Below, in pieces: positions 205 to 18,976 of a stretch of 64,000 bases of DNA; position 1 is the first letter of the stretch, and the number at the start of each line of letters is the position of its first letter. The position numbers and the translations under genes are program-made. The notes under the pieces were generated by a model. That model saw only the letters and a program-made list of their open reading frames with translations. It was not told the DNA's origin and did no database searches. Source of the DNA: Flagellatimonas centrodinii (GTDB taxonomy: Bacteria > Pseudomonadota > Gammaproteobacteria > Nevskiales > Nevskiaceae); contig NZ_CP092104.1 of the NCBI RefSeq assembly GCF_016918765.2, positions 3,348,001 to 3,412,000 of the forward strand, written 5' to 3'.

Positions 205-360
205 CCATCGCCTTCCGCCCGTCCTCCGCGGCGTCGCGCATGCAGCGCGACCTCCTAGAGTTGACCGACCAGGCGCGTGAGTGAACGCGGCTCAGCAAGG
301 ATGCAGGCCACAGCGGCGCATGGCGGATCTGCATTTTCAACCCCTTGCAAGGACACCCCG

Positions 361-870
361 ATGAGCCCTCAACTGAACCCGAAAGCCCTCGCCGCACTGA
401 CGGTGCTGTGCACCATGACCGCCGCGCACGCGGAGACGGATACCAGCAGCTTTGACGTGCTGTTGCAGATTACCGAGGCCTGCGATGTCAGCAGCACGGC
501 ACCCAACGACCTTGATTTCGGTACCACGTCGCTGCTGACCGGCAACCTTGACCAGACCTCGACGCTGACGGTGCTGTGCACCACCGGCACCACCTTCGAT
601 ATCGGGCTGGATGCGGGCATCAACGAATCCTCAGTGGACGACATCAGCACCCGCCGCATGACCGACGGCGACAGCAGTTATGTTGGCTATCAGCTCTACC
701 AGGACGTGGGTCGCAGCGTCGCCTGGGGTGACACGGTCTCCACCAATACGGTGAGCAGCACCGGCACCGGTGACGATCAGAGCTTCACCGTCTATGGCCG
801 GGTCCCAACCCAGATCACCCCCGCGGCGGGCAGCTATACCGACAACGTCACCGTCACCGTCACCTACTGA
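361..870 (+). CDS. Spore coat protein U-domain pilus subunit (archaic chaperone-usher, CsuA/B-like)
   Basis: Secreted structural subunit of an archaic (Csu-type) chaperone-usher pilus, 169 aa. Residues 1-22 form a signal peptide ending near AHA; the rest is one SCPU domain with paired cysteines, the 'DLDFGT' strand, the 'RRM..GD...YQLYQD..RS..WGD' core and the C-terminal 'TPAAGSYTDNVTVTVTY' donor-type strand. I chose ATG 361 because an AAGGA box lies about 11 bases upstream and the signal peptide begins there; an earlier in-frame ATG at 277 would add a non-signal-like leader. The chaperone gene follows after 17 bp, so it is probably the first gene of a four-gene operon. The two repeats of the tip protein encoded at the end of the operon are related in sequence. 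Confidence 0.9.
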   Translation: MSPQLNPKALAALTVLCTMTAAHAETDTSSFDVLLQITEACDVSSTAPNDLDFGTTSLLTGNLDQTSTLTVLCTTGTTFDIGLDAGINESSVDDISTRRMTDGDSSYVGYQLYQDVGRSVAWGDTVSTNTVSSTGTGDDQSFTVYGRVPTQITPAAGSYTDNVTVTVTY

Positions 871-887
871 CCGCCCGGATCTGGCCG

Positions 888-1682
888 ATGAACGTGCCGC
901 TGCCACCACCACCGCAGCGCCGGCGACGGGTCCTGCATGCCGTCCGGGCCCTCGGCATGATGATGACAATGGTTGTCGGCATGACGATGCTCGCCCGGTC
1001 GCCGAGCGCCCTCGCCGCCGGGCTCAGCGTGATGCCGGTCAGCCTGCAATTTGCCACAGGCGAGATGATGCAGGGCCTGTGGCTCAGCAATACCGGCAAC
1101 CGCGAAATCACCGCCCAGCTTCGCCACTTCGAATGGGCCCAGCACGATGGCGACGATCAGCTGCAGCCCACCCGGGCACTGGCCGCGAGTCCGCCGCTGT
1201 TCACACTGTCGCCCGGCCAGCGGCAGTACGTGCGGATCGTGCGGATCGATCGCCAGCCGCGTGGGCGTGAACGCAGTTACCGCATCCTCGTCGACGAACT
1301 GCCCGATCCATCGCTGCCGGTTCGCCAAGGGCTCAATTTCGTCATGCGCTATTCGATCCCGATTTTTATCGAATCACCGGACACCCCCCCACAGCTTCAG
1401 TGGCAGCGTCACACCGCCGGCGACACCCTCATCCTGTCGGTGCGCAATACCGGGGCGCGGCGGGCCCAGCTCTCCGAACTGCAACTGCTCGATGTCAACG
1501 GGCGCGTGGTGTTCGAGAAGCCCGGCCTGCTTGGTTATGCACTGGCGCACAGCGGGCGTCGGTGGACCTTTGCGCTCGACAGCGCGCTGGCCGATACGGT
1601 GCGCGACATCCGCATCCACATCGATGGAAGTCCGGCGCGTGACGCACTGTCCGTCGATCCGACAACCGCGCCGTCGCGGTAG
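888..1682 (+). CDS. Periplasmic pilus assembly chaperone (archaic FGS family, CsuC-like)
   Basis: Periplasmic chaperone that should stabilise SCPU-type subunits and hand them to the usher; 264 aa. The N-terminus has an unusually long basic stretch (RRRR near residue 11) before a hydrophobic segment, with likely cleavage near residue 43 after ALAA. The first immunoglobulin-like domain carries the family pattern 'LSVMPVSLQF..GE..QGLWLSNTGN' and 'FTLSPGQRQYVRIVR..R', which in this family leads into the subunit-binding region; the second domain starts around 'IPIFIESP'. It lies between a subunit gene and the usher and is translated in the same direction, as in csu operons of Acinetobacter. Function is assigned from family and context. 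Confidence 0.88.
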   Translation: MNVPLPPPPQRRRRVLHAVRALGMMMTMVVGMTMLARSPSALAAGLSVMPVSLQFATGEMMQGLWLSNTGNREITAQLRHFEWAQHDGDDQLQPTRALAASPPLFTLSPGQRQYVRIVRIDRQPRGRERSYRILVDELPDPSLPVRQGLNFVMRYSIPIFIESPDTPPQLQWQRHTAGDTLILSVRNTGARRAQLSELQLLDVNGRVVFEKPGLLGYALAHSGRRWTFALDSALADTVRDIRIHIDGSPARDALSVDPTTAPSR

Positions 1683-4047
1683 CGTGCGTGCGCTGCTGGC
1701 GCTGACCTTGATCCTGGCCCCGTTCCCGGCTGCGGTGTCGGCCCCGGGCGATCCGGCCTTGGACCAGGGCCAGGTGAACCTGATTCTGATGGAGGGCCCG
1801 GGGGTAACCGACACCGCGCGGGATCTCTATCTGGAGGTCATTCTCAACGGCGTTCACACGCGCCGGGTCATCCACGTGGTCCAGACCGACCGTGGCCAGC
1901 TCCTGGCATGGCCGGCCAACCTCCGGGACATCGGGCTGACACTGGCGGGCGTCGCGCCGTCGGTCTACCTGCCCCTGGATGCGCTTACCGAAGTCCACAG
2001 CCGCTACGATGAGCCGAACCAACGCCTGTATCTGGACGCCGAGGTGCACCGCCTGAACCTTCGCAGGCAGCAGCTGCAGGCCGCTGACCACCGGCGCTGG
2101 CCGTCCCAGGCGGGGCACGGTGCCGTGCTCAACTACGATCTCTACACCCAGCATGGAGACCACCGAAACACCTTCAATGCCGCCACCGGACTACGGGCCT
2201 TCAGCGGCGAGCAGGTCATCGAAAGTACCGGGCTGACACGGTGGTCCAATAGCGGTGAAGACGCGGCCTACGTCCGTCTCGATACCCGCTGGACACGGTC
2301 GTCGCCCGATCAGTTGTGGACCCTGACCGCCGGCGATCTCATCAGCGGCAGCCTGCCCTGGTCGCGTGCGACCCGGCTCGGTGGCGTGCAGATTCGCCGC
2401 AACTTCGCCCTGCAGCCAACGCTGCTGACATACCCGCTGCCACAGTTCCTCGGCGAAGCCGCACTGCCATCGGACATCGAGCTTTACGTCAACGGCCTGC
2501 GCCAATACCGGGGCTCGGTACAGCCGGGTCCGTTCGCGATCGATGTGCCGCCGGGCGTCAGCGGCAGCGGCCTCGGGGAGGTCGTGCTCACCGACGTGCT
2601 TGGCCGCAGTCGTCGCTATGCATTCGATTTTTACAACAGCACCCGACTGCTGCGCGCCGGTCTCAGTGACTACGCAGTGGAAATCGGTGCCGTCCGTCGT
2701 CAGTTCGGACGAGATTCCTTTCGCTACCGCGGCGACATCGCGACCAGCGGCAGCATCCGCTACGGATTCAATGATGCGCTCACCCTTGAGGCGCATGCAG
2801 AGGCCGGCAACGGGGTGGCACTCCTGGGCGCGGGCCTCGTAACGGGCCTGGCCGGCGCCGGCACCCTCTCCTCGGCCTACGCTGCCAGTGCGGGCGCGCC
2901 GGATCGCGCCGGCGCGCACGGCGGACAAGTAAGCGTCGACTACAGCTGGACCCGTGATCGCATCAGTATCGGCTACGGCCTGACCCGCACCCATGGCGAC
3001 TACCGCGACCTCGCGGCGCTGGACGGCCGCCCGCCCCCCAACCGTGCCGAACGGGCCCTGCTCGGCCTCAGCCTCGGCGCCGCTGGCAGCGCGTCACTGC
3101 AATACACCCGCCTCGATACCGAAGATGGCAACCGCGACCGACGGCTCGGCGCCGGGTACAGCATCGCCCTGTTTCGCAACACCAGCGCTTACGTCAGCGG
3201 CAGTCTCAACCTCGACGATAGCGGCGACCGCGGCATCTTCGCCGGTCTCTCGATGACCTTGGGTCGCCGTATCTCAGCCGGCATCGACACCCGTCGCTCG
3301 GGCGATACCGAGCGATACGGGGCCTACGCCGCGCGCTCACCCGGCAGCGACGGCGGCGTCGGCTGGCGGCTGCGCGCGGACCGGGGCAACCCGACCGACG
3401 TTGTTCAGGCCGAAGCTCGCTATCTCGGCACGTATGGTGACGTCACGGCAGGCCTGTGGTCGCTCGACGCGCGCCGCAGCGTCTATGCCAGCGCCAGCGG
3501 TGCGCTGGTGATGATGCGCGGCGACCTGCTCGCAGCGCGGCGGATCGACGACAGCTTCGCACTGGTGTCGACCGGCGGCGTTGCGGGCATCACGGTACTG
3601 ACCGAAAACCGTCCGATCGGCCGCACCAACGGACGCGGTCACTATGTCCTGACAGGGCTCAATGCCTATCAGCCCAACCGGGTCGGGATCGACCCTCTCG
3701 ATGTCCCGGTCGATCATGCGCTGGCGGCCGTCGATCAGGATGTCGTGCCAGCGCAGCGTGCCGGGGTTCTGGTCAATTTCCAGCTCGAACCCGTGCGCGC
3801 GGCCCTGTTGCTTCTGCAGGATGGCGGGGGCCAGCCGCTACCGCTTGGCACCCGGGTGCTGCGCGACAGCGACCCCGTCGGCGTCCCCGTGGGGTTCGAC
3901 GGCCAGGCCTATCTGCAAGGATTGTCGGCCGACAATGCCATCCACGTCCGTCTGCCGGATGGCGGGCACTGCGACCTGCGTTTCTCCCTGCCCGCTGGCG
4001 AGGCCTTGCCGGTTATCGGCCCACTGCGTTGCGAGGCTGCCCCATGA
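1624..4047 (+). CDS. Outer-membrane usher of an archaic chaperone-usher pilus (CsuD-like)
   Basis: Outer-membrane beta-barrel that secretes and polymerises pilus subunits. About 787-807 aa, matching usher length. After the signal peptide come the N-terminal domain ('LYLEVILNGV'), the barrel and plug region ('LPSDIELYVNGLRQYRGSVQPGPFAI', 'GLGEVVLTDVLGR') and C-terminal domains ending in a Cys-containing segment ('HCDLRFSLPAGE'). Two starts are possible: ATG 1624, which overlaps the chaperone end by 59 bp and gives a long basic leader, or GTG 1684, which gives a compact signal peptide (VRALLALTLILAPFPAAVSA) directly after the chaperone stop. Neither has a clear ribosome site. The stop overlaps the next start (ATGA), so the two genes are likely translationally coupled. 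Confidence 0.9.
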   Translation: MEVRRVTHCPSIRQPRRRGSVRALLALTLILAPFPAAVSAPGDPALDQGQVNLILMEGPGVTDTARDLYLEVILNGVHTRRVIHVVQTDRGQLLAWPANLRDIGLTLAGVAPSVYLPLDALTEVHSRYDEPNQRLYLDAEVHRLNLRRQQLQAADHRRWPSQAGHGAVLNYDLYTQHGDHRNTFNAATGLRAFSGEQVIESTGLTRWSNSGEDAAYVRLDTRWTRSSPDQLWTLTAGDLISGSLPWSRATRLGGVQIRRNFALQPTLLTYPLPQFLGEAALPSDIELYVNGLRQYRGSVQPGPFAIDVPPGVSGSGLGEVVLTDVLGRSRRYAFDFYNSTRLLRAGLSDYAVEIGAVRRQFGRDSFRYRGDIATSGSIRYGFNDALTLEAHAEAGNGVALLGAGLVTGLAGAGTLSSAYAASAGAPDRAGAHGGQVSVDYSWTRDRISIGYGLTRTHGDYRDLAALDGRPPPNRAERALLGLSLGAAGSASLQYTRLDTEDGNRDRRLGAGYSIALFRNTSAYVSGSLNLDDSGDRGIFAGLSMTLGRRISAGIDTRRSGDTERYGAYAARSPGSDGGVGWRLRADRGNPTDVVQAEARYLGTYGDVTAGLWSLDARRSVYASASGALVMMRGDLLAARRIDDSFALVSTGGVAGITVLTENRPIGRTNGRGHYVLTGLNAYQPNRVGIDPLDVPVDHALAAVDQDVVPAQRAGVLVNFQLEPVRAALLLLQDGGGQPLPLGTRVLRDSDPVGVPVGFDGQAYLQGLSADNAIHVRLPDGGHCDLRFSLPAGEALPVIGPLRCEAAP

Positions 4048-5108
4048 TCCTGTCCGCGCCAGCGCGCACCCGCGCAACGAAGCGCCCTTCACTACGAGGA
4101 CGACGGCGCTCAAGATCAGGGTGGGCACCCTGGCTGATCCTGCTGGGCCTGCTTGGATGCCACGGTCCGGCGACCGCATCGACGTCCTGTAGCGCCACCA
4201 TGACCGATGTCGCCTTCGGCACCGTCGACCCCCATGGCGGCAACGTTGATGTCCAGGCCACCATCAACTACAGCTGCACGATCACTTCGATCCTGTCGAG
4301 TTCCCGAGTCCGCATGTGCTTCAGCATCGGTGTCGGATCCAGTGGCCTCGGCCACCTGACACCCCGGCGGATGATCAACGGCGCCAACGCGATGGCCTTC
4401 CAGCTCTACAAGGACGCCGGACGCAGCCTGATCTGGGCAACGCGCTTCAACAGCGAAGGCAGCGTTGGCGTCGACCTGGAAGTCGGCGCCCTGCTCGGCA
4501 GCGCCACCAACAGTGGCTCGCTGACCGTCTACGGCCGGGTACCCACCGGACAGTCGACGCTGGTGCCGGGCAGCTACAGCAACACCTTCGGCGGCGCCCA
4601 TACCGAACTGGTGTATCAGTACAACGAATTCCTATTGGGCTTGCTCGGATTCCCGGCCAGTTGCACCAGCGGGGGCAACGGCAGCGGTGCCAGCACCTTC
4701 CCCTTTGTCGCCAGCGCGGTGGTGCAAAAGCAATGTTCGCCGATGTTCGCCACCCCAAGTATCGACTTCGGCACCCAGGGCCTGCTCCGCACGCCGGTCG
4801 CGACCACTACCATCCTGTCGCCGCGATGCACCAACACCACGCCGTACCAGATCGGTCTCGACAACGGCCAGCATGCCAGTGGCAACACGCGACGGATGCA
4901 GAGCGCAACCGGCGACCATGTCAGCTACGAGCTATACCGCGATGCCAGCCATAGCCTGCGTTGGGGCAACACCCAGAACGTCGATACCGTCTCGGGGACC
5001 GGCACCGGGGCTGCGCAGGACCTGACGGTTCATGGTCGCATCAGCGAACAGACCACGCCGGCCGCCGGCAGTTACAGCGATACCGTGACGGTGACGATCT
5101 ACTACTGA
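4044..5108 (+). CDS. Two-domain spore coat U protein, probable pilus tip adhesin (CsuE-like)
   Basis: Probable tip subunit of the archaic pilus, 354 aa. A basic N-terminus is followed by a hydrophobic signal segment (residues about 27-45). Two SCPU domains are present: residues ~48-200 ('CSATMTDVAFGTVDP...RRMINGANAMAFQLYKD') and ~220-354 ('CSPMFATPSIDFGTQGLL...RRMQSATGDHVSYELYRD'), the second ending with the donor-like 'TPAAGSYSDTVTVTIYY'. Two-domain architecture and last position in the operon match tip adhesins such as CsuE. The stretch between the domains is Gly/Ser-rich ('TSGGNGSGAS'). The gene overlaps the usher stop by four bases. The adhesive role is inferred from architecture. Confidence 0.85.
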   Translation: MILSAPARTRATKRPSLRGRRRSRSGWAPWLILLGLLGCHGPATASTSCSATMTDVAFGTVDPHGGNVDVQATINYSCTITSILSSSRVRMCFSIGVGSSGLGHLTPRRMINGANAMAFQLYKDAGRSLIWATRFNSEGSVGVDLEVGALLGSATNSGSLTVYGRVPTGQSTLVPGSYSNTFGGAHTELVYQYNEFLLGLLGFPASCTSGGNGSGASTFPFVASAVVQKQCSPMFATPSIDFGTQGLLRTPVATTTILSPRCTNTTPYQIGLDNGQHASGNTRRMQSATGDHVSYELYRDASHSLRWGNTQNVDTVSGTGTGAAQDLTVHGRISEQTTPAAGSYSDTVTVTIYY

Positions 5109-7789: not shown

Positions 7790-7807
7790 CTCAGCCTTCA
7801 CAGTCAA

Positions 7808-7961
7808 TGTCATTGCGAGCCGCCGCAGGCGGCGCGGCAATCTCGTGGCCACGGGCGTGCCGGCCGGACGAGATCGCCACGGGGCTCCGCCCCTCGCGAT
7901 GACAGGATAGTTCTGTGTCATTGCGAGCTGCCGCAGGCGGCGCGGCAATCTCGTCCGGATG
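7808..7961 (+). repeat. Intergenic repeat cluster A (one full and one half element)
   Basis: A full element spans 7808-7904: it opens TGTCATTGCGAG, has small internal hairpins and closes CTCGCGATGACA. A left half-element follows from 7916. This is the plus orientation, between the 3' ends of two convergent genes. Confidence 0.85.
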
Positions 7962-8000
7962 CATCGTCCGCCAACAATCTGCGATGTATCGCCAACACAC

Positions 8001-10557: not shown

Positions 10558-11844
10558 ATGGGGGACGCCGACAGCGGGATCTGGGTGTTCGCGCTGATGT
10601 CGGCCGGCGCAGGCGTGGTGACCTTCTGGGCCGACCGCCACAATCGCGCCAGCGGTGCACTCTCCGCCTGGTTGGCGCTGATGGGACTGTCGGCGGCCTG
10701 GGGTGGCGTCACCACCGCCATCGGCGCCAGCCAGGGCTCGCTCATGCTCAGCGCCACCCTGGAGAGCAGCGCGATTCTCGCCGGCATCGAGTGGGGCCGC
10801 CGGGTGGCCCTGTCAGCGCCCGGTCGCTGGCGCAAGGTCACCCGTGCCCTGTTTCTGGCTGCACAGATTCTGGTGCTGGTGTTCTGGGGGCTGCGGCTCG
10901 GCTACGCCCTGCTGTTCCCCGACCTTGCGGTTTCCGCCCGCCCGGGCATGGTCCCGGTCAGCGGTGTCGAATTCGCCGTTCTCGCCCCCCTTATCGGCAG
11001 CGTCATGGTGCTCGGCGCCATAGCCCTCGTGATTCTGTTGTCTGTCGGGATCGACCGTATCGAGCGGGTCCGGTTGCGCGCCTTCATGATCGCCGCGCCC
11101 TTGCTGCTGTCGGGCCTGTTTCTGCAGGGGCCAGCGCTGCCGCTGCTGATGAGCCTGGGCCTGCTGGTGTTCTTTGCCGGCTCGGTCCGCTTCATGATCC
11201 TGCAGGTGGCCCGCGGCGCCCGCCTCCGCCAGTTCGTCGCGGCCGAAGTGGCCGGCCTGGTCCAGGACGACACAGCCCTGCTGGAGCATCGGGACCGCCG
11301 ACAGATCAGTATCGTCGCCTGCGATCTACGGGGCTTCACTGCACTGGCGCAGCAGCGATCTTCCGACCAGGTGATGGCGCTGCTGGAGCGCTATTACGCC
11401 CAGGCAGGACACATTGCCGCGCGACACGGTGCCGCCGTCAAGGACCATGCGGGCGACGGCATACTGATGCTGGTCGGTGCACCGGTCCCGGTCCCGGACG
11501 GTGCGGCCCGCGCCCTGCGGCTGGCCCGCGCGCTGATCGACGAACTGCACCCGCAGATGCAGGCCGACGCTGGCGGCCTCGGCCTGGGCGTCGGCGTTGC
11601 CACCGGCGAAGTAAGTGTCGGTGCCGTGCGAGGCGCCGGTCGGCTGGAGTACGCAGCGGTCGGCAGCGCCGTCAATCTTGCCGCTCGCCTGTGTGCTGCG
11701 GCGCCGGGAGGTGAGGCTTGGGTCGATGCGACGACCATCGAGGCCGCCCGCGAAGCCGCCGTAGAGGCGCGCACCCCACTGATGCTGAAAGGGTATGCCG
11801 AACCGGTGCAGCCCTACGCCCTGATGCCCAGCCCACGCACCTGA
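10558..11844 (+). CDS. Membrane class III adenylate/guanylate cyclase
   Basis: Probable membrane nucleotide cyclase of 428 aa. Residues 1-225 contain six or seven membrane segments, and residues ~245-428 are a class III cyclase domain. Metal-binding Asp residues sit in 'IVACDLRGFTAL' and 'KDHAGDGIL', and the transition-state Asn373 and Arg377 are in 'VGSAVNLAARL'. The usual substrate-selecting Lys four residues before the second metal Asp is replaced by Asp (K-D-H-A-G-D), so ATP versus GTP preference is unclear. It follows frmB by seven bases. A hairpin sits over its stop codon and that of the convergent diguanylate cyclase gene. Role in formaldehyde signalling is only suggested by context. 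Confidence 0.85.
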   Translation: MGDADSGIWVFALMSAGAGVVTFWADRHNRASGALSAWLALMGLSAAWGGVTTAIGASQGSLMLSATLESSAILAGIEWGRRVALSAPGRWRKVTRALFLAAQILVLVFWGLRLGYALLFPDLAVSARPGMVPVSGVEFAVLAPLIGSVMVLGAIALVILLSVGIDRIERVRLRAFMIAAPLLLSGLFLQGPALPLLMSLGLLVFFAGSVRFMILQVARGARLRQFVAAEVAGLVQDDTALLEHRDRRQISIVACDLRGFTALAQQRSSDQVMALLERYYAQAGHIAARHGAAVKDHAGDGILMLVGAPVPVPDGAARALRLARALIDELHPQMQADAGGLGLGVGVATGEVSVGAVRGAGRLEYAAVGSAVNLAARLCAAAPGGEAWVDATTIEAAREAAVEARTPLMLKGYAEPVQPYALMPSPRT

Positions 11845-11876
11845 GGCCGCCCCTTCACGCCCGACACCGGCCTCAG
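11841..11876. terminator. Inverted repeat spanning two convergent stop codons
   Basis: A nine-base arm CTGAGGCCG at 11841 pairs with CGGCCTCAG at 11868 across an 18-base loop. The stop codons of both convergent genes lie inside the two arms. There is no T-run, so intrinsic termination is uncertain; the hairpin may instead protect both 3' ends. Confidence 0.5.
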
Positions 11877-13762
11877 ACGGCACTCTCGTCGGGCACCGGC
11901 CCCGTCACGCCACCCGTCCCGGGCGCGCCCGCGGTGATGACGCAGTTGCGCCCTGCCCGCTTCGCTCGGTAGAGCGCACGATCGGCAGCGTCAACGATCT
12001 GGGCAGGCGTTTCGCCATGCGTGGGGTAATGCGCCACACCGATGGAAATGGTCACCGACAGCAGGCTGTGCGCCCGCGTCTCCACCCGCACCCGCCGGAT
12101 CTGCGCACACAGTGCCTCGGCCCGGGCGGTGGCTTCGGCCAGGGTGATCTGCGTCATCACCACGGTGAACTCTTCGCCGCCGTAGCGGCTGGCAAGATCA
12201 CCACGGCGACAGAATGCATTGATCTCGTCGGCCACACGGCGAAGTGCAATGTCGCCAACGGTATGACCATGCTCATCATTGAAACGCTTGAAATGATCGA
12301 TATCGATCATCAGCACGGCGATCGGCGCCGCATCGCGCTCGGCGCGTGCAAAATCGCGCGACAGTGATTCTTCCAGATGCCGCCGGTTGTAGAGCCCGGT
12401 GAGCGGATCGCGGATCGACTGGTTGCGCAGCGTCTCGCGCAGCCGCAGGTTCGCCAGCGCCAAGCCAACCCGCGCCGACACCAGCTCCGCGACCTCTACC
12501 GCCCGCCCGTGGCTGGCGGCATCGCCCGTCCACTGCACGAACAGCATGCCGATCAACTCGCCTTGGCCGGTTAGCGGCAGGCACAGGCTGGACTGCCCCG
12601 CATGCGCCTCACGCTGCACCTTGCCCCGATGCCCGCAGCGCACCCGCTGCGCATCGCCGGCATCGCTCAACCAGGTCTCGCCGCGCCGTAGCCCCCAGCA
12701 GTCCTCGGGACTGAAGACCGGCTCACTGGCGGTGTCATCACCCCAGCCATACAGCGATTCCAGATGGGTCTCGGAGGCGTTGATCAGGTACACCACGCCT
12801 GAACAGCCCGCAAACAACTGGAGGCAAGCCCGGGAGACGAACGGCCCGATTTCCTCCATCTTCAGACAGGTCTGCAGGCCATTGTCGAGCACGCCCATCA
12901 GCCGCGCCTCGGCTTCACTGACCCGCAGGTCCGCGAGCATCTTCTGGCGCTCGGTGATGTCCTGAATCTGCGAGATGAAGTGCAGCGGCTGCCCCTCCGC
13001 ATCCCGCTGCAGGGCGACATCCAGCTGTACCGAGATAACACTGCCGTCGTGCCGGATGTAGCGTTTGTTCATCCGGTATTTCGACTTGCGGCCATGGATC
13101 AGGTTGTTCACTTCGGCCAGGTCGCGTGCGAGATCCTCGGGATGGGTGATGTCCTGAAAGGAACTGGCCATCAACTCGTCCCGGCTGTAGCCGAGCATTT
13201 CGCAAAGCGCGTGATTCACCTCGATCCAGCGACCTTCAAGGCTGACAATGGCAAGACCGATCGGCGCGCCCTCCACCGTCAGACGGAAGCGTCGCTCGCT
13301 GATCGCCAGCGCCTGATTGCGTTGCTCCAGGGTGGCGGTCGCCTCCTGTAGCTGCCGGTTGACCTCATTCAGGCGCTGCCCCTGTTCTCGCACCTCATCC
13401 AGATAATTCGAGGCCCGCGGAATCAAGGGCAACAGGCAGATCGCGGTTGCCACCGAAACCCCCGCGGTCAGCGTCATGACCACCGCATCAAGCCGATACA
13501 ACGGCCGCCACAGGTTGATGATGTCGATGACGTGGGTGAGCCCACAAAAGAAAATGAACGCGCCGAACAGCGTGAACATCCAGCCGAACGGCAGATTGGG
13601 CTGCCGCCGCAGAAAGTGCCCCAACGCAAATGGAATCGAAAAATAGGCCAGGGCCACCAGCCCATTCCCGATCACCATGGCCCACAGCAACCGCGGGTCC
13701 CAGGCGATGCAATAGCCGTGGGGAAGCCCCCGGCTTTCGAACAGGGCAGTCAACCACTCCAT
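11873..13762 (-). CDS. Diguanylate cyclase with ethylene-receptor-like sensor, PAS and GAF-like domains
   Basis: Probable c-di-GMP synthase of 629 aa. Residues ~25-110 form three membrane helices closely matching the ethylene-binding domain of plant ETR1: 'ALAYFSIP' and 'FGAFIFFCGLTH' align without gaps, placing Cys73 and His77 at the copper-ligand positions (ETR1 C65/H69) and Asn33 where ETR1 has Asp25. A coiled coil, a PAS domain (~160-285, with 'HPEDLARDLAEV'), a GAF-like region (~290-440) and a GGDEF domain follow. The active site GGEEF (528-532) and the inhibitory RxxD site five residues before it are intact. The gene stands alone and converges with the membrane cyclase gene. Confidence 0.9.
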   Translation of the reverse strand: MEWLTALFESRGLPHGYCIAWDPRLLWAMVIGNGLVALAYFSIPFALGHFLRRQPNLPFGWMFTLFGAFIFFCGLTHVIDIINLWRPLYRLDAVVMTLTAGVSVATAICLLPLIPRASNYLDEVREQGQRLNEVNRQLQEATATLEQRNQALAISERRFRLTVEGAPIGLAIVSLEGRWIEVNHALCEMLGYSRDELMASSFQDITHPEDLARDLAEVNNLIHGRKSKYRMNKRYIRHDGSVISVQLDVALQRDAEGQPLHFISQIQDITERQKMLADLRVSEAEARLMGVLDNGLQTCLKMEEIGPFVSRACLQLFAGCSGVVYLINASETHLESLYGWGDDTASEPVFSPEDCWGLRRGETWLSDAGDAQRVRCGHRGKVQREAHAGQSSLCLPLTGQGELIGMLFVQWTGDAASHGRAVEVAELVSARVGLALANLRLRETLRNQSIRDPLTGLYNRRHLEESLSRDFARAERDAAPIAVLMIDIDHFKRFNDEHGHTVGDIALRRVADEINAFCRRGDLASRYGGEEFTVVMTQITLAEATARAEALCAQIRRVRVETRAHSLLSVTISIGVAHYPTHGETPAQIVDAADRALYRAKRAGRNCVITAGAPGTGGVTGPVPDESAV

Positions 13763-15312: not shown

Positions 15313-15338
15313 TGGCATTGCGCGCCCGCGTCCATTTC

Positions 15339-15731
15339 CTGTCATTGCGAGCGCGTACACCCTCATTGTCATTGCGAGCCCGCGCAGCGGGCGTGGCAAC
15401 CTCACCCGGACGGCAGTGCCCTCGATGACGAGATCGCCGCGCGGCTACGCCGCTTGCGATGACAGGAGAAGGCTACACACTCGCGATGACAACCATTTCA
15501 TTTCATTGCGAGCCCGCGCAGCGGGCGTGGCAACCTCACCCGGACGGCAGTGCCCTCGATGACGAGATCGCCGCGCGGCTGCGCCGCTCGCGATGACAAC
15601 CATTTCATGTCATTGCGAGCCCGCGCAGCGGGCGTGGCAACCTCATCCGTACGGCGGTGCCCTCGATGACGAGATCGCCGCGCGGCTACGCCGCTCGCGA
15701 TGACGGGAGAAGGCTACACACTCGCGCCGAC
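15339..15731 (+). repeat. Intergenic repeat cluster B (three full elements, tandem)
   Basis: Full elements lie at 15367-15464, 15501-15598 and 15608-15704, nearly identical to one another, with degenerate half-elements before the first. The spacer 'ggagaaggctacacactcgc' occurs after the first and third copies. Plus orientation, between convergent genes. It fills the whole gap between the permease and dinB. Confidence 0.88.
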
Positions 15732-15738
15732 AACGGGA

Positions 15739-16812
15739 CTACGCCAGAAAAAGGTCCGCCTGCACCCGCGCATCATCGGCGTCGGTGAACTGGGTCAAGC
15801 CCACGCCCACCAGTCGGTAGCGGGTTTCCGATGGCAGACCGACCCGCAAACGTAACGACAGGGCATAGGCCGCCAAGGCATCGGCGGAATCCGGTGGGCG
15901 CTCCGGGGTCAGGTGGCGGCTGATGATGCGGAAGTCCGCCGTCTTCAGCTTCAACACCACGGTCCGCGGCACCCGTGCGGTCTTGCCCCGCCCCCGCCAG
16001 GTCTTCGCCGCCAGTGCCCGGATGGCCGGCTCCAGCGCCTCCAGCGGCAGGTCTTCAGCAAAGGTGTCTTCACTGGACACCGACTGCACCGGGCGATCCG
16101 GCTTCACCGGGTGGTCGTCGATCCCCAGCGCCAACTCATGCAGACGGCGGCCGTAGCGGCCGAAGTGCTGCACCAACTCGGTCACATCGGCCGCCGCGAG
16201 ATCGCCGATACGGTGATATCCGCGGGTTTCCAGCCTGCGTTGCATGACTTGACCGACGCCGGGGATGCGCCCCACGGGCTGTGAAGCAATCACTGCCGCC
16301 GCGCTGTCCGGACGAATCACGAACAGGCCGTCGGGCTTGCGCCAGTCCGACGCCAGCTTGGCGAGAAACTTGTTGGGCGCCACACCGGCTGAAGCCGTCA
16401 ATTGCAGCTCGGCACGAATCGCTGCACGAATTGCTTCGGCGGTCGCCGTGGCGCTGCCCAGGCCCGAGGTATCGGCGGTCACATCCAGGTAGGCCTCATC
16501 CAGCGACAGCGGCTCGATCAACGCGGTATGGCGGGCGAAGATCTCCCGCACCTGCCGCGAAACCGCCCGGTAACGGGTGAAGTCCGGCGGGACGAAGACT
16601 GCCTCGGGACACAAGCGCTCGGCGCGGACCGCCGGCATTGCCGAGCGCACCCCGAACCGACGCGCCTCATACGAAGCGGCACACACCACCGAGCGCATGC
16701 CGCGCCATGCCACCACCACCGGGCGCCCGCGCAGGCTGGGGTCGTCGCGCTGCTCCACCGATGCGTAGAACGCATCCATGTCGACGTGAATGATCTTGCG
16801 CGGCGGGCTCAT
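15739..16812 (-). CDS. dinB: DNA polymerase IV (Y-family)
   Basis: Error-prone translesion polymerase of 357 aa. The start 'KIIHVDMDAFYASVEQRDDP' carries the first catalytic Asp, and 'SLDEAYLDVT' carries the Asp-Glu pair of the active site. The fingers motif 'VVVAWRGMRSVVCAASYEARRFGVRSAMP', the thumb helix-hairpin-helix ('GRIPGVGQVMQRRLETRGYHRIGDL') and the little-finger domain ('RSVSSEDTFAEDLP'-like) follow in order. The C-terminus ends without a clear beta-clamp motif that I can point to. The length fits DinB. No LexA-type box was identified upstream. Confidence 0.96.
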   Translation of the reverse strand: MSPPRKIIHVDMDAFYASVEQRDDPSLRGRPVVVAWRGMRSVVCAASYEARRFGVRSAMPAVRAERLCPEAVFVPPDFTRYRAVSRQVREIFARHTALIEPLSLDEAYLDVTADTSGLGSATATAEAIRAAIRAELQLTASAGVAPNKFLAKLASDWRKPDGLFVIRPDSAAAVIASQPVGRIPGVGQVMQRRLETRGYHRIGDLAAADVTELVQHFGRYGRRLHELALGIDDHPVKPDRPVQSVSSEDTFAEDLPLEALEPAIRALAAKTWRGRGKTARVPRTVVLKLKTADFRIISRHLTPERPPDSADALAAYALSLRLRVGLPSETRYRLVGVGLTQFTDADDARVQADLFLA

Positions 16813-16859
16813 GTGCCAAGCGTAAAGCCTGGCGCGCCCCGCCGCCCGGCGGCCCTGGT

Positions 16860-17303
16860 TTACTCGTCAGCGCGCAGCGCGTCGTAGGCCGCGTAGAAGC
16901 CTTCAAGACGCTCGGTGATCAGCGCACGCTGGGCATCGGTAACACTGCCCTGCTGCACGCTCAGCTTGAAGGCCCCGTCTTCAGAGCCCAGCGCCGTCAC
17001 GACTGCCGCGCGCCCCACCCCCGCCCGCACAAACAACGGCTTGCCCTGAATCAGGGCCTCGAAGTCATGGGGCTGCGGTACCGGGTCGTCACGCTCGCAG
17101 AGAATGGCCTGGGCCGTCTCCGGCGCTTCCGGCAAGGTTACCAAGCCGGGCTTGGCCGCCTCGGCAGTGAAGTCCCACCCCTCGATGGCGACCATCTTGG
17201 CGCCGCCGTCGGTGAGCCAGTAACAATCGTCGTTCGCCAGCACCCCAAGGGGCAGCAGCCCCAGACACAGGGCGCCGACGAACCGAATACGCGATCGGGG
17301 CAT
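16860..17303 (-). CDS. Secreted hypothetical protein
   Basis: Exported protein of 147 aa with a signal peptide (residues 1-23, cleavage after VLA). The mature part starts 'NDDCYWLTDGGAKMVAIEGWDF' and has two cysteines that could pair. Near the end is 'LSVQQGSVTDAQRALITERLEGFYAAYDALRADE', likely helical. ATG 17303 has a strong AGGAGG site upstream. I recognise no family. It lies directly downstream of repeat cluster C in transcriptional order and upstream of dinB, but the 47-bp gap to dinB does not force an operon. Confidence 0.7.
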   Translation of the reverse strand: MPRSRIRFVGALCLGLLPLGVLANDDCYWLTDGGAKMVAIEGWDFTAEAAKPGLVTLPEAPETAQAILCERDDPVPQPHDFEALIQGKPLFVRAGVGRAAVVTALGSEDGAFKLSVQQGSVTDAQRALITERLEGFYAAYDALRADE

Positions 17304-17375
17304 GATGCACCTCCTGGTTCGGTCTCCTCCCTAGTAAGACGTTTGGCGACGCGATTCCCGCATCTCCTGGCCCCT

Positions 17376-17660
17376 CGCCATTGCCAGCCCGCGCACCCTT
17401 CTTGTCATTGCGAGCTCGCGCAGCCCCTTGTCATTGCGAGCCCGCGCAGCGGGTGCGGCAATCTCGTCCGACCGGCACTGCCCTCCCAAACGAGATCGCC
17501 ACGAGACGTCGTCTCTCGCGATGACACCCATTTCCGGTCATTGCGAGCCCATGCAGCCGCCCTGTCATTGCGAGCCCGCACAGCGGGCGCGGCAATCTCA
17601 TCTGGACGGCACTGCCCTCACCAACGAAATCGCCACGAGACGTCGTCTCTCACGATGACA
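17376..17660 (+). repeat. Intergenic repeat cluster C (two full elements plus half-elements)
   Basis: Full elements lie at 17429-17526 and 17563-17660; single left halves precede each one (17403-17428 and 17537-17562). The second hairpin differs from other clusters (CGAGACGTCGTCTCTCG-like), keeping the pairing although the bases changed. Plus orientation. Confidence 0.85.
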
Positions 17661-17669
17661 AAGTTGAGA

Positions 17670-18290
17670 CTAGGAGGCCGCCGACACTCGCGCCTTACGC
17701 GGCTTGCGCACCTTGGGGGCTGCCGGCGTGGCGGCAGACTTGGCCTTCCGCGACACTTTGGCCTTTCGGCTTGTCGGGGTGGCCTTGGCCGCCGCTTTGG
17801 GTTTGGCCTTGGTATTCACCTTGGTCTTTTGGGCCTTGGCCTTGGCCTTGCCCTTCGCCTTCGGCGCTTCTTTAGCGATCAGCTCAAGCCGCGCCGACGC
17901 ATCCTTCTTGCCCAGCCCGCGCAGTGCTGCAATGGCCGCAACCTGAGCAGGCCGCGGGGTGGTTTTACGCGCTTCCCAGTTATAGATTGACTGCGTGCTG
18001 ACATCGATCAGCCGGGCAAAATCCTCCGCGCTCAAACCCAGCCGCGTGCGCAACGATTTCAGGCCCTTCGCCACAAACCGCACCTTGCCGGTATCGACGT
18101 CTTCTGCTGGCTTTTCCACCGCCTTCGGCACCGCAACACGGCGCAGCTTGGAGAGTTCACGTTCCAATCCCGCCACTTGCTTCTTCAAGGCAGCGAGCTG
18201 ATGGCGATGCGCAGTGGTTGCCGAACGCAATGCTTCGGTATGTTGACGCACCGTCTTTTTCGACAGGCGGGCGATTTCGCTTTTGAACAT
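17670..18290 (-). CDS. Helix-turn-helix protein with coiled coil and histone H1-like Lys/Ala-rich tail
   Basis: DNA-binding protein of about 206 aa. Residues ~1-60 form a basic helical/coiled-coil region ('ALKKQVAGLERELSKLRR'). Residues ~75-120 form a Cro/C1-type HTH ('LKSLRTRLGLSAEDFARLIDVSTQSIYNWEARKTTPRPAQVAAIAALR'). The last ~70 residues are almost only Lys, Ala, Pro, Arg and Ser, like bacterial histone H1-type tails (AlgP, HctA), which bind DNA without sequence specificity. I chose ATG 18290; a TTG at 18335 or GTG at 18310 would extend it. None has a clear ribosome site. The combination suggests a nucleoid-associated regulator; targets are unknown. Confidence 0.75.
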   Translation of the reverse strand: MFKSEIARLSKKTVRQHTEALRSATTAHRHQLAALKKQVAGLERELSKLRRVAVPKAVEKPAEDVDTGKVRFVAKGLKSLRTRLGLSAEDFARLIDVSTQSIYNWEARKTTPRPAQVAAIAALRGLGKKDASARLELIAKEAPKAKGKAKAKAQKTKVNTKAKPKAAAKATPTSRKAKVSRKAKSAATPAAPKVRKPRKARVSAAS

Positions 18291-18405
18291 CGATGCAATA
18301 TCAGACACGAATTGAGCTCTTTGAAACAAATTCAAGTCAAATTATGCATGAATATCGAAAACCCCAGTTCTGCTGAAGAAAAGCGTAGTCGCGAGTGATA
18401 CGTTC

Positions 18406-18976
18406 CGAGTGCTGAGCAATGGCCCCACTCGCCACGCCCTTCTTTGTCATTGCGAGCCCGCAGGGCGTGGCAACCTCACCCGCCTGGCACTGCCCTCACC
18501 AACGAGATCGCCGCGGGGCTACGCCCCTCGCGATGACAATCGATCCCTTGTCATTGCGGCCCGCACGCCCTTCTTTGTCATTGCCAGCCCGCACACCCTT
18601 CTTGTCACTGCGAGCCCGCGCGCCCTTCTTGTCATTGCGAGCCCGCAAAGCGGGCGCGGCAATCTCACCCGGCCGGCACTGCCCCGAATCGGTGTTGGGT
18701 TGTGCCGCTAATACACCTCGGGTCGTGCCGCTAGTGCACGTCAGCGCTGGCCATCCTGGCGAACCGTCACTTCGCGAATTCACTCCAGCCCCGGCTTCCA
18801 TGCCGGTGCGTTCACCCCACCCGCGAGCAGTGCTCGCAACAACGGTGGGGTTCACCCTCGCGATGACAGTTGGGGAGTGCATCCCTCGCGATGACACCCC
18901 CTCGCTCGCGCTGTTGCCCTCCTCAGCACTCGCCACTCGCCACTCGCCACTCGCCACTCAGCACTCTGCTGTCCTT
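18406..18976 (+). repeat. Intergenic repeat cluster D with flanking AGTGCTGAGT modules
   Basis: Full element at 18445-18538. A tandem run of four left halves of about 28 bp each starts at 18549 ('TGTCATTGCGAGCCCGC' variants joined by CCCTTCT). A truncated element follows to about 18690, and isolated right ends (CTCGCGATGACA) lie near 18860-18895. The AGTGCTGAG module stands at 18406 and, inverted, at 18909-18967, where CACTCGC is repeated in tandem. This fills the whole divergent gap; no gene is supported in it. Confidence 0.82.

Follow-up and report, generated by a model that had tools for sequence, protein, structure and literature searches.

Bacterial ethylene receptors, as well as natural variants at the position of Asp25 of the Arabidopsis receptor ETR1, are already known. 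Ethylene binding has been shown for AzoEtr1 of the proteobacterium Azospirillum brasilense, which has an N-terminal ethylene-binding domain with all seven binding residues, and a PAS domain (PMC11819568). AzoEtr1 and SynEtr1 of Synechocystis, also a bacterial protein with an N-terminal ethylene-binding domain, signal via histidine kinases to a response regulator, and the output of ETR1 is of the histidine kinase/receiver type. The accessible literature on bacterial ethylene responses covers histidine kinases only.

Two residues of the membrane domain, ETR1 D25 and K91, have been named as a pair, and correspond to D35 and K98 in AzoEtr1 (PMC11819568). In PMC13012798 a salt bridge between them is proposed from an AlphaFold model of ETR1 and, on the basis of ETR1 mutants and this model, is put forward as the link of ethylene binding to signaling. 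According to the same source, a receptor with the Asp25-to-Asn change alone is functional and shows an affinity for ethylene about 100-fold lower (PMC13012798, citing Azhar 2023, Aman 2025).

This report describes a protein of Flagellatimonas centrodinii in which both members of this pair are replaced and the output domain is GGDEF. Positions are those of the window, i.e., the whole stretch of 64,000 nucleotides that was analyzed.

Domain Organization

The open reading frame (11873–13762, ATG start) lies on the minus strand, as do all of the features it contains, and encodes 629 amino acids organized as ethylene-binding, PAS, GAF and GGDEF domains. The ethylene-binding domain (residues 25–118; 13409–13690) matches Pfam ETR1_N (PF25487, E = 2.6e-33) with a score of 114.6 bits, far above the cut-off of 27, which places it in the family, and a search of the whole source genome found a single domain of this type, in the same interval as the Pfam match. 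Pfam also identifies a PAS domain (residues 158–269; 12956–13291), a GAF domain (residues 302–436; 12455–12859; GAF_2, 27.7 bits, just below the cut-off of 28.6) and a GGDEF domain (residues 450–606; 11945–12415; E = 4.5e-50). The GGDEF domain is apparently intact, as judged from its residues: the active-site motif GG(D/E)EF is present as GGEEF (residues 528–532; 12167–12181) and a canonical RxxD I-site (R519-R-G-D522; 12197–12208) is located five residues upstream. The initial annotation had proposed an ethylene-receptor-like sensor on a diguanylate cyclase with both GGEEF and the I-site preserved, and the Pfam matches and motifs bear this out.

An AlphaFold2 model of residues 1–150, built from 53 sequences (mean pLDDT 91), predicts helices at residues 23–53, 60–85, and 89–149. 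Each contains a hydrophobic 19-mer (mean Kyte-Doolittle 1.9–2.2), as in a membrane domain of three transmembrane helices, and helix 3 is modeled without interruption from 89 to 149 as one long helix heading to the PAS domain. No solved structure of an ethylene-binding domain was found by sequence search, and a fold search returned nothing at E ≤ 0.001.

Two further motifs were observed. A PHGxCxxWxP start (P14, H15, G16, C18, W21, and P23; window 13409–13762, L105–L184) is invariant in 53 aligned bacterial domains and conserved equally with the copper ligands, whereas the N-terminus of ETR1 has no PHG. A CWxLRRG...CxH motif in the GAF domain recurs in full-length relatives (L105, L107, L109, L110, L113) and may be a second site of input.

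Comparison with ETR1 and AzoEtr1

In a BLASTP comparison the protein showed 43% identity to the N-terminus of ETR1 over 100 aligned columns (E = 5e-21); the ETR1 reference sequence used here and for the alignment was entered by hand. Six of the seven ethylene-binding residues of ETR1 are matched, Tyr40, Ile43, Pro44, Ile70, Cys73, and His77 being aligned with Y32, I35, P36, I62, C65, and H69, and Asn33 (13664–13666) stands at the position of D25. Cys73 (13544–13546) and His77 (13532–13534) are the equivalents of the Cu(I) ligands of ETR1 and may reasonably be expected to bind Cu(I) as well.

These residue assignments coincide with those of the initial annotation. Its description of the alignment as free of gaps holds for helices 1 and 2 (ETR1 14–69) but fails before helix 3, where the loop is shorter than that of ETR1 by a net three residues. 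Likewise, Asp25 is indeed replaced by Asn33 but is not, as had been stated, the only difference of note, since ETR1 Lys91, the proposed salt-bridge partner of Asp25, is also changed and corresponds to Met96 (13475–13477). In a plain pairwise alignment to ETR1 this lysine falls opposite a gap; the register of Met96 is fixed because bacterial relatives with Asp and Lys align over the same stretch without gaps. The general reading, a diguanylate cyclase with a sensor of the ethylene-receptor type, is retained, but it overlooked that Asn33 belongs to a recurring joint change of Asp25 and Lys91, of which full-length relatives show a similar form.

The protein thus differs from a canonical ethylene receptor, which has the complete set of seven residues, Lys91 and an output of the histidine-kinase type. 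It differs in the same residues from AzoEtr1, in which the Lys91 position is occupied by Lys98. The Asp25-to-Asn mutant of ETR1 has Asn at the same position but, as described in PMC13012798, is a single-site laboratory change in which Lys91 was presumably kept, whereas the F. centrodinii protein has no Lys. Because the mutant as described altered Asp only, the figure of about 100-fold may not transfer to the double change.

Coupled Loss of Asp25 and Lys91

The co-occurrence of residues at positions 25 and 91 (ETR1 numbering) was surveyed in 245 distinct bacterial domains collected from relatives, the family, order, class and phylum, the Methylococcales, one alphaproteobacterial class and named genomes, with thin sampling outside Pseudomonadota. 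Asp25 is found with Lys or Arg at 91 in 195 domains. Asn or His at 25 occurs with a non-basic residue at 91 in 29 domains (hereafter, variants) and with a basic residue in only one. Lys is retained in three of the five domains with Glu25, as a charge pair predicts, and three domains with Ser25 still have Lys, so the Asp-Lys rule is not absolute. By corrected mutual information, columns 25 and 91 rank third among 4,560 pairs (z = 6.9) and are mutual best partners by about threefold. The coupling is present within each output type: among GGDEF proteins, position 91 is basic in 36 domains with Asp and non-basic in one, compared to one and 24 domains with Asn/His, and among kinase proteins the respective numbers are 131 and five for Asp, and none and four for Asn/His.

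The variants occur in Nevskiales (the F. centrodinii protein and Nevskia L106, L109, L110, and L113), in Methylococcales (Methylovulum L114 and Methyloprofundus L133) and in a few others, including the kinase-linked domains of a Candidatus Obscuribacterales member (L156) and an unplaced Pseudomonadota bacterium (L119). Because of this distribution, the combination of Asn/His with a non-basic residue is probably a repeated co-substitution and not one mutation. On a tree built without columns 25 and 91, Asp and non-Asp states switch at least 14 times. Greedy pairing on the best tree, weak branches included, gave 11 separate contrasts of Asp with Asn/His, in nine of which Lys was lost with Asp, with no case of the reverse and two ties (sign test on 9 to 0, p = 0.004); this result leans on the weak branches and is taken as supporting evidence only. 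The tree of this 95-residue domain is poorly resolved, and its well-supported branches leave three to four contrasts, too few for significance.

The closest full-length matches to the F. centrodinii protein show ~46–49% identity over the ethylene-binding, PAS, GAF, and GGDEF domains, and in all except L107/L017 the pair is replaced, either by His together with Met, Leu, or Thr or by Asn together with Leu. Because Asp is absent from such relatives, a private or sequencing-type change at Asn33 was rejected. Among the Nevskia and other Nevskiales relatives of the same layout and in the same range of identity, L105, L109, L110, and L113 are likewise non-Asp and non-Lys but combine His25 with a Met, Leu, or Thr residue at 91, in place of the Asn/Met found here. 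The close full-length relative L107/L017 keeps Asp and has Gly at the Lys position, a possible intermediate of the two-site change. In L114, L117, L133, L035, L215, and L156, Lys is replaced by Glu or Asp, so that the charge at 91 is reversed, with Asn at 25. A role of Met96 as a fourth copper ligand (Cys-His-His-Met, with the His variants) was considered and rejected as a feature of the family, as other variants have Leu, Thr, Val, Asp, Glu, Ala, Gly, or Tyr there.

Copper Site and Output Domains of the Variants

Equivalents of both Cys65 and His69 are present in 26 of the 29 variants, at a mean pairwise identity of 49% and a mean column conservation of 0.62, and those of Tyr32, Ile35, Pro36, and Ile62 are at least 93% kept. 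The exceptions are three Asn-type domains on GGDEF proteins (L056, L234, L235) in which the counterpart of Cys65 or His69 is missing, which suggests from their sequences that some lineages may have dropped the copper site. Both halves of the Asp-Lys bridge have apparently been removed together in separate lineages with the copper site kept. This covariation is a separate check on the proposed Asp-Lys pairing, and the natural double variants form a set for assay.

The output of the variants is GGDEF in 24 cases and a kinase in four, vs. 36 and 131, respectively, for Asp/Lys domains (Fisher p = 9e-11, uncorrected for descent; a tree-aware test was not significant), and the bias toward GGDEF is largely clade-bound. 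Two genomes, G008 (L018 and L052) and G034 (L011 and L048), encode both an Asp/Lys kinase receptor and a variant cyclase, which would fit a division of labor. No description of the coupled loss of Lys or of its concentration on GGDEF proteins was found in the accessible literature, and priority is uncertain. The literature yielded no ligand, metal or enzyme assay of Asn/His variants.

Proposed Function and Alternatives

Family membership, the intact motifs, the coupled residue loss, the retention of the copper ligands and the GGDEF bias are directly supported by the data above. On the explanation that is favored here, the protein would be a membrane-bound diguanylate cyclase that senses through a true domain of the ethylene-receptor family, in a recurring natural variant without the Asp25-Lys91 pair. 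In the pocket of helices 1 and 2, Cys73 and His77 most likely continue to hold Cu(I), and ethylene or another Cu(I) ligand of similarly small size would be bound with an affinity presumably below that of Asp/Lys receptors. Ligand state would be transmitted via helix 3 to the PAS and GAF domains and the GGDEF dimer and finally to c-di-GMP, the direction of the response being presumed. This explanation, in which low-affinity sensing of ethylene or a comparable small ligand depends on Cu(I) and sets c-di-GMP through the continuous helix 3, is given about an even chance of being correct. It would extend the possible output of the ethylene-receptor sensor family to c-di-GMP.

A copper or redox sensor, which would bind Cu(I) and report the availability or oxidation state of copper to the cyclase and not a gas, appears unlikely. 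It would account for the preservation of the copper-ligand residues alongside alteration of the position on which ethylene affinity depends most, and the His found at position 25 in 11 of the 29 variants would supply an extra ligand; however, the F. centrodinii protein has Asn at this position, Met occurs at 91 in only some variants (Leu, Thr, Val, Asp, Glu, Ala, and Gly elsewhere) and is not a conserved ligand, and the other ethylene-binding residues, Tyr32, Ile35, Pro36, and Ile62, are kept too. It is also doubtful that the pocket has been retuned by loss of the charge pair to a different small Cu(I) ligand, such as another alkene, CO or similar: the two polar residues have changed jointly and the metal site is kept, which is consistent with this, but the flanking genes, in which a clue to the ligand was sought, give no hint of one. 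A degenerate sensor, with the domain acting as membrane anchor and dimerizer only and signaling left to the PAS and GAF domains, is equally doubtful: these two domains do provide alternative inputs, and Cys65 or His69 is missing from three variants, but the other 26 keep both ligands at the divergence given above, Tyr32, Ile35, Pro36, and Ile62 are conserved as well, and a plain anchor would have no need of such residues.

Beyond the low-affinity Cu(I)-dependent sensor proposed for this protein, it can be suggested very tentatively that the Asn/His, non-basic domains constitute a distinct functional class, which would have arisen by several joint losses of the pair with the copper site kept, and would be characterized by a ligand other than trace ethylene, signaling without the bridge and output mostly to c-di-GMP.

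Genomic Neighborhood

The flanking genes encode a nucleotide cyclase, a zinc alcohol dehydrogenase, an esterase, and a membrane protein with no Pfam match; the dehydrogenase and the esterase look like formaldehyde detoxification. The cyclase is the convergent neighbor (10558–11844); it is an adenylate/guanylate cyclase of class III (Guanylate_cyc, E = 7.4e-14), and its N-terminal part is hydrophobic. A gene for an ethylene-binding domain was absent from both of the two same-genus genomes searched, a point that counts against the favored explanation, and the relative of the neighboring cyclase in these genomes is just 36–39% identical, which makes a comparison with an empty site impossible.

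Elsewhere in the window, a family of intergenic repeats is found at 15313–18684 and also at 7794–7969, with up to eight copies of units of ~40–130 nt that contain TGTCATTGCGAGC. Read by eye, the translations of the open reading frames at 277–5108 resemble a fimbrial cluster of the chaperone-usher type, its subunits being spore-coat-U-like.
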